In this document: positions 19,355-20,422 of the stretch, piece after piece
Numbering within the stretch: position 1 is the stretch's first letter
Layout of the letters: every line of letters begins with the position of its first letter
Origin: Candidatus Omnitrophota bacterium
GTDB lineage: Bacteria > Omnitrophota > Gorgyraeia > JAUYCX01
Reading direction: 5' to 3'
NCBI GenBank assembly: GCA_030692045.1
Contig: JAUYCX010000041.1
Location: forward strand, 1 to 64,000
Length of the DNA: 64,000 bases
The notes under the pieces: generated by a model
The model's database searches: none
Told to the model about the DNA's origin: nothing
The model's input: the letters and a program-made list of their open reading frames with translations, nothing else
Position numbers and translations under genes: made by a program

Positions 19355-20422
19355 TTATTCCTTCAGCCACTGCTGCGGAGGGTTGCGCAGAAACCGTTCC
19401 GTAAAGATATCGTCTGTTATGCTTAAATTGTATTTCACCTCTTGAAAGGTCACTTCTGTACTGTGGCCAGTTTTAACATTTCTCATCGCCCTCTTGGTTA
19501 TGGTTAGAATCCCATCTATATCTTTAATCTCTAAGGCTTCAAAGGTTCGATATAGTTCATTCTGTCTATCATAGAATTCTTCTTTTATGGGCAAAAAGTT
19601 TGCTTCGTCAATCCACGAGACTCTTCTGGTGTACGCTGAAGTCTCTTTGGGAAGGCTTTCGATAACGAAACAAGTTCTATTATTTATCATCTCTTTTTTT
19701 AACATAGTATGGCTGTCCTCTTCCGGCTTTCTGCCCGAAATGTCCTCATAACTGAAGTCGCTTCCCACAAAGCTCGAGAACTTATCGTTACTAGCGATCC
19801 TCTTGACTAAATCGAGTGCAGGGATGAATAGCCAACGGTCGTCATCCCTCTCAGGGTACTTATAGACCATAAATGTGGTATCCTTCACATCCGCTGGTCT
19901 ATGAAAATACATATAGTACTTTTGATTGCCGCCATCTTCGTAATCCTTCCTTAACATTGTAAGTTCCCTTACCCTCTTTTGGCCAACTTTATTTATAAGC
20001 TCCATCAGAACCTTTGCGCGCATATCTTCGCCTGCGTAATAAAAACGGGCGTAACAGACACGAACGATTTCTTCCGGAGTTAACCTGTCACTGGAAAAAG
20101 ACACCTTTGTCCAGATTATTCCTAACGCCAATATCATAATCCCAAATTTTGCGATAGCAAATTTTGCCCCGAAGGGGTTGCGCGACAAAATCCGAAGAGG
20201 ATTTTGTCGGCTTCGCAAGGTATCCCGGATTTTTCTCGCCTGCCTACGGCAGGCAGACGCTATTTTACGCAGCCACAAAATTTGGGATACCCCGCAAAAC
20301 TGGCCAAATTCTCGTCGAATTTGGCCATGCGGCCCCTCACTATCGCTCGGGGAGGATTTTTCTTCGCCCGCCAGCGGCGGGCAGGAAAAATCCGGGATAA
20401 TCAATGCTTTTACATATCTCAT
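19355..20422 (-). CDS. Outer membrane lipoprotein-sorting (LolA-like) protein with an in-frame insertion in the signal-peptide coding region
   Basis: LolA-like core (YMYFHRPADVKDTTFMVYKYPERDDDRWLFIPALDLVKRIASNDKFSSFVGSDFSYEDISGRKPEE); N-terminus MRYVKALII preceded by GGAGGG. Confidence 0.8.
   Translation of the reverse strand: MRYVKALIIPDFSCPPLAGEEKSSPSDSEGPHGQIRREFGQFCGVSQILWLRKIASACRRQARKIRDTLRSRQNPLRILSRNPFGAKFAIAKFGIMILALGIIWTKVSFSSDRLTPEEIVRVCYARFYYAGEDMRAKVLMELINKVGQKRVRELTMLRKDYEDGGNQKYYMYFHRPADVKDTTFMVYKYPERDDDRWLFIPALDLVKRIASNDKFSSFVGSDFSYEDISGRKPEEDSHTMLKKEMINNRTCFVIESLPKETSAYTRRVSWIDEANFLPIKEEFYDRQNELYRTFEALEIKDIDGILTITKRAMRNVKTGHSTEVTFQEVKYNLSITDDIFTERFLRNPPQQWLKE
20142..20396. 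repeat. 255-bp palindrome-rich insertion, flanked by ATAATC direct repeats
   Basis: ATAATC at 20136-20141 and 20397-20402; interleaved inverted repeats A 20139-20151/A' 20276-20288 and B 20222-20235/B' 20385-20398; several internal hairpins. Confidence 0.8.

Follow-up and report, generated by a model that had tools for sequence, protein, structure and literature searches.

BOX elements of Streptococcus pneumoniae are modular and are assembled from sub-units. MITEs do not strictly require an autonomous parent that shares their ends, and such parents are often missing. Prokaryotic MITEs, e.g. QMITE2 of Coxiella burnetii, are reviewed in PMC10969869, where the Rickettsia palindromic elements (RPEs) are also described and BOX elements are mentioned. 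Here we analyzed a 64,000-nt stretch of DNA from a Candidatus Omnitrophota bacterium (hereafter the window), in which an insert carrying interleaved inverted repeats in the order A-B-A′-B′ interrupts a LolA-like gene. This insert is very probably a MITE-like, nonautonomous mobile element, a single copy of which would have jumped here, in-frame and stop-free, into signal-peptide codons.

Like prokaryotic MITEs, the insert is short and gene-less, has terminal inverted repeats and target direct repeats, resides at A+T-rich targets, and adopts a very stable stem-loop fold. It occurs in multiple dispersed copies, which are many in two other genomes of the same class (G021 and G314), with a single one in the window genome. 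It differs from these MITEs in its chain of about eight hairpins with strong covariation, in its inverted internal copies of the ends, in the palindromes that sit in its hairpin loops, and in that no parent IS was found. RPEs are likewise palindromic and of similar small size, and the present copy shares their in-frame position in a protein gene; however, RPEs are inserted in-frame in many genes and encode a conserved peptide, whereas the present element is only exceptionally found within a gene and its frame is closed in some copies. It resembles BOX elements in being a modular repeat made from sub-units, the modules here being hairpin slots with exchangeable arms.

The insert and its host gene

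The LolA-like gene (19355–20422, minus strand; PF17131, E 1e-63) is interrupted in-frame in its signal-peptide codons, and the conserved part of its protein starts after an 87-codon segment without counterpart in relatives. A 70% identical ortholog (L004) is uninterrupted and begins MKNIKILI-MILALG, as compared with MRYVKALI-[insert]-MILALG in the window, placing the insertion point at codons 8–9. The net gain from the insertion is 261 nt, or 87 in-frame, stop-free codons. Judged from the sequence, the gene thus stays open while its predicted signal peptide is split by the insert, after which an ATG (20137) could serve for a restart of translation; how far such an in-frame interruption is tolerated is open to experimental test.

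The element itself spans 256 nt (20141–20396, plus strand; CCCAAATTTTGC ... GAAAAATCCGGG), and 18 full-length copies were aligned and dozens of partial copies found. It is flanked by ATAAT on the left (20136–20140) and on the right (20397–20401); this direct repeat is read as the target-site duplication, and joining the flanks restores MRYVKALI-MILALG, as in the ortholog. The description of this segment as an inserted element is therefore borne out by the 5-bp direct repeats, the uninterrupted ortholog, and the many copies elsewhere. Apart from the frame that belongs to the interrupted gene, the element contains open frames only of a short, chance kind, and it has no transposase gene of its own.

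Within the insert, A (ATCCCAAATTTTG, 20139–20151, plus strand) has an exact reverse complement, A′, at 20276–20288 (minus strand), and B (ATCCCGGATTTTTC, 20222–20235, plus strand) has one, B′, at 20385–20398 (minus strand). The A/A′ match is 13 nt long and the B/B′ match 14 nt, the latter extendable by one base (flanking T/A) to 15 nt (20221–20235/20385–20399). Among the inverted repeats of at least 10 nt in the insert, these two pairs are the only long-range ones (arms 60 nt or more apart), and none of 300 dinucleotide-preserving shuffles of the insert contained even one long-range inverted repeat of 13 nt or more; the two perfect pairings reported in the earlier note are thus confirmed. A corresponds to the left terminal inverted repeat and B′ to the right one, the first AT of A and the last AT of B′ being part of the target duplication. 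The left end reads CCCAAATTTTGC and the right end, read inward, CCCGGATTTTGC or CCCGGATTTTTC, so that the terminal inverted repeats are imperfect (10 of 12 positions match between CCCAAATTTTGC and CCCGGATTTTGC). A and B have in common the end sequence CCC[AA/GG]ATTTT[GC/TC]. Most probably, the four repeats of the A-B-A′-B′ series belong to a small mobile DNA element that lacks genes and is made up almost entirely of hairpins, two of them being its termini and the other two internal duplicates of these.

Copies and target sites in related genomes

BLAST of the whole window genome returned one copy, and no second full copy was found either in that search or in one that used other copies as queries on about 1.0 Mb of the genome; with a single copy, mobility in this genome is not observed. 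In G021, which belongs to the same class but to another family, related sequence occurs in at least 25 places, the best being 86% identical over 228 nt, and the end motif CCCRRATTTTGC was found at 44 sites, compared with 1 for a reversed control pattern. Ten of the 384 genomes in the class sample, the window genome included, matched at E ≤ 1e-6, and G314, G359, G128, G169, G349, and G202 have several copies each. The dispersed copies are about 71–92% identical and come from genomes of several families of the class; in the phylum sample, the matches were confined to this class. No match was detected in the phage, plasmid, and viral contigs that were searched as carriers. This patchy distribution combined with high identity suits a mobile element. 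Element size is about 110–290 nt in the other copies.

The target rule was examined in 33 copies delimited with both ends. The 5-bp flanks were identical in 18 of these, as against 4.4 expected upon random re-pairing of left and right flanks, and none of 5000 shuffles reached 18; the flanks of about half of the copies were mismatched, and this half includes copies that are truncated or were wrongly delimited. Since the duplicated words, all A+T-rich, vary among copies (ATAAT, ATTAT, ATGAT, ATAAA, ATTAA, TTAAA), they are copies of the target and not element sequence. In G314, an element lies in codons 4–5 of another gene (MNL|IILSF) with ATGAT on both sides, and a relative of this gene in G128, a genome of the same genus, is uninterrupted. 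Other copies are situated directly upstream of the start codons of genes that we take, from our own reading of the proteins, to be yidC-, ispE-, and pyrR-like, in intergenic DNA, or close to where a gene ends. The copies occur in both orientations and beside unrelated genes, and a majority of those examined are positioned between genes or at their edges. What had been a puzzling interleaved repeat thus becomes, in a class of uncultured bacteria, a mobile-element family whose ends, target rule, and copies are defined.

Nested and crossing pairings

The four local hairpins listed in the earlier note are all present. Its list lacked three pairings: that of GGTATCCC (20220–20227) with GGGATACC (20283–20290), a nested link between B and A′, that of A with a local partner at 20157–20166, and that of B′ with a local partner, GGATTTTTC, at 20354–20362. 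With these, the element can be drawn on the plus strand as a chain of nested hairpins. H1 (20143–20166; CAAATTTTGC-GATA-GCAAATTTTG) comprises A and its local partner and has three pairs changed on both sides among the copies. H2 (20167–20177; CCCC-GAA-GGGG) is invariant and hence neutral as evidence. H3 (20178–20218), a double-decker hairpin of the form TTGCG[CGACAAAATCC-GAAGA-GGATTTTGTCG]GCTTCGCAA, has six pairs changed on both sides and is 99–100% paired. In H4 (20219–20291; GGTATCCCGGATTTT/AAAATTTGGGATACC), B, an inverted internal copy of the right end, pairs with A′, an inverted internal copy of the left end; this stem contains two G·T pairs and is 95–98% paired, and its loop holds a GC-rich hairpin, GCCTGCC-TAC-GGCAGGC (20238–20254), which is present in 5 of the 18 copies. 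As no compensatory changes were seen in H4, the central stem rests on conservation only. H5 (20292–20332), again a double-decker (CCGCA...[TGGCCAAATTC-TCGTC-GAATTTGGCCA]TGCGG), has six pairs changed on both sides, and H5b (20333–20352; CCCC...GGGG) has four. The right-end hairpin, H6 (20354–20393; GGATTTTTC ... GAAAAATCC), is 93–97% paired with one compensatory pair and carries a GC hairpin (20366–20382) in its loop.

We compared the two sets of pairings in an alignment of the 18 full-length copies (A1) made without reference to structure. In the nested set (H1, H2, H3, H4, H5, H5b, and H6), 95.6% of 1467 cells were paired, and pairing dropped to 27–52% when the partners were slid. Compensation affected 23 of its 82 pairs and 71 cells, a level reached in 0 of 500 shuffles, and was concentrated in H3, H5, H5b, and H1; related copies are treated as independent in these counts, as in those for the crossing set. 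The crossing set, A·A′ plus B·B′, had only one compensatory cell in 23 pairs, a value matched by 118 of 500 shuffles, and its covariation score was near that of the shuffles. The pseudoknot-like arrangement proposed on the basis of the A-B-A′-B′ order therefore finds no support in the copies, which favor the nested hairpins. One copy (L200) illustrates this pattern: A is changed to CCCAACTTTTGC and its local partner to GCAAAAGTTG, while A′ is unchanged. The minimum-energy folds also use the nested partners (RNA, z −9.4 for the minus strand; DNA, z −10.5 for the plus strand), but the folding program cannot form pseudoknots, so the nested fold alone does not exclude one. Departures from pairing outside H4 comprised 19 G·T and 17 A·C, and with this balance the wobble bias that an RNA should produce is missing from both strands. 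The hairpins are thus more likely to be maintained or used at the DNA than at the RNA level, whether by being recognized as hairpins or cruciforms or by template-switch correction.

These data bear directly on a reading of the insert as a structured RNA, either cis-regulatory or a small RNA, with a true A-B-A′-B′ pseudoknot selected in the lolA-like leader. Such an RNA would account for the stability of the fold and for the fact that A/A′ and B/B′ remain about 95% pairable across the 18 copies, but these arms are near-invariant and compensation lies in the nested alternatives, the G·T and A·C departures are balanced, and the copies stand at unrelated genes in both orientations. A search for a known RNA family gave no Rfam covariance-model match up to E = 1. 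We regard the RNA reading, largely refuted already by the copies, as very improbable. It is also very improbable that the palindromes did not transpose and instead arose on the spot, through template-switching during replication in a genome rich in hairpins. The other nested palindromes of this genome would fit such a process, as would the hairpin loops, whose extra palindromes differ between copies; it does not account for the uninterrupted relatives or for the existence of homologous copies in other genera and at loci unrelated to one another, and the matching target duplications in 18 of 33 copies argue against it as an origin. Template-switch correction of imperfect palindromes is an established mutational process, and template switching may still be the reason why the arms stay complementary. 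The copies provide a natural covariation set for asking whether palindromic DNA stays palindromic through selection or through template-switch repair.

The in-frame position in the window raises the further alternative of a coding palindromic module, similar to RPEs, that is kept for the peptide it adds to host proteins. The segment is stop-free here and the same minus-strand frame is open in 8 of the 18 full-length copies, but stops are scarce in most frames of the window copy, so that its openness may be compositional, and an in-frame event has a prior of one in three. The stop counts do not decide for or against coding selection on the insert. Moreover, only two early-codon insertions were found, the other of which (in G314) has a stop in that frame, and many copies are outside genes. 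We consider a coding role a very poor prospect as well. The preferred reading remains that of a MITE-like element, which has imperfect terminal inverted repeats (CCC[AA/GG]ATTTTGC), generates a 5-bp A+T-rich target duplication, and is made up of a hairpin chain with some hairpins nested in the loops of others. Length differences between copies lie mostly in the hairpin loops and bring in extra palindromes, i.e. GC-rich ones in the loops of H4 and H6 (in the window and in some G021 copies) and others in those of H1 and H5b. In one copy (L197), part of A′ is replaced by an unrelated palindrome.

Internal ends, putative mobilization, and other palindromes

In the MITE-like reading, A and B′ would be the left and right ends, respectively, while B would be an internal, inverted copy of the right end and A′ one of the left, the two being paired in the central stem H4. 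The presence of two end-like sequences inside the element then yields the order A-B-A′-B′. Half-units occur on their own: left-half units (L179 and L188) have the form A ... B-loop-B′ and close on B-B′, and right-half units (L155, L158, and L162) open on a fused A-A′ (CCCAAATTTTGGGATACC) and end at B′. Thus, A/A′ and B/B′ do occur in independent units, as the earlier note had asked to be checked. Its suggestion of copies of one ancestral element holds insofar as A and B represent two versions of the same end sequence and half-units exist; on sequence grounds, the composite really does appear to contain repeated copies of one ancestral end. Fusion of two units, each running from an A end to a B′ end, would be the simplest source of the internal ends, and a left unit in tandem with a right unit that lost the junction between them would give the A-B-A′-B′ order automatically. 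The change may also have run the other way, the halves being derived from the full form through deletions bounded by direct repeats of GGATTTTTC (at 20227 and 20354) or of CCCAAATTTTG, which would leave the target duplication intact. That one whole element was literally inserted into another is not supported, since the bases flanking the inner B...A′ segment (GGTAT...ATACC) form an inverted and not a direct repeat. The idea is retained only in the form of a fusion or an inverted duplication.

The element would be mobilized in trans, with a 5-bp-duplicating transposase of the host or of an IS as the agent. Neither a transposase nor a longer element bearing its ends was found, and a search of four draft genomes for the exact 12-mer revealed no inward-facing pair of the end motif at a transposase-sized distance. 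G021 encodes one IS1380-type transposase (PF13701; L229, contig C175); the ends of this IS read CCTGAATAATGCGT, and it is probably flanked by a 5-bp duplication (TTGAT). The IS1380 ends also begin with CC, but they differ from those of the element, and this IS1380 was rejected as a partner. A broader idea, which we put forward as a rather unlikely one, is that of mobile elements made of exchangeable hairpin slots, in which palindromes would be swapped or inserted into loops while the ends and the 5-bp rule stay fixed, and which would be recognized as folded DNA by a transposase and be able to add in-frame N-terminal segments.

Other palindromes were surveyed in about 0.6–1.0 Mb of the 2.19-Mb window genome, and the further nested palindrome families found there indicate that loop-nesting is common in this lineage. 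At window positions 9664–9837 lies a CCAGCACTAA/TTAGTGCTGG family, of which about 612 kb of the genome yielded 36 matches, most of them arranged as facing pairs about 90 nt apart; each adjoins nested AACTTAT/ATAAGTT-type palindromes, some with an inner GTCCGCC/GGCGGAC hairpin. Further dense palindrome arrays are present in the window at 4660–4890 and 35061–35590. A second palindromic stretch near the LolA-like gene (20433–20491; CAAATTTACTTCGTAAATTTG and CCCGCCATTGTTTCTGTGGCGGG), between the MMPL gene and the lolA-like start, is missing from the L004 junction, and pieces of it recur in several genomes of the class. Other palindromes bounded by ATCCC...GGGAT were detected in the same genome (L068:15470–15702, L057:3321–3390, and L061:16748–16778), ATCCC giving six long palindromes as compared with 0–2 for permuted pentamers. 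In addition, a 14-bp perfect hairpin (L065:7565–7596) was observed in a long open frame, directly after a signal-peptide-like segment, and is possibly another in-frame palindrome.
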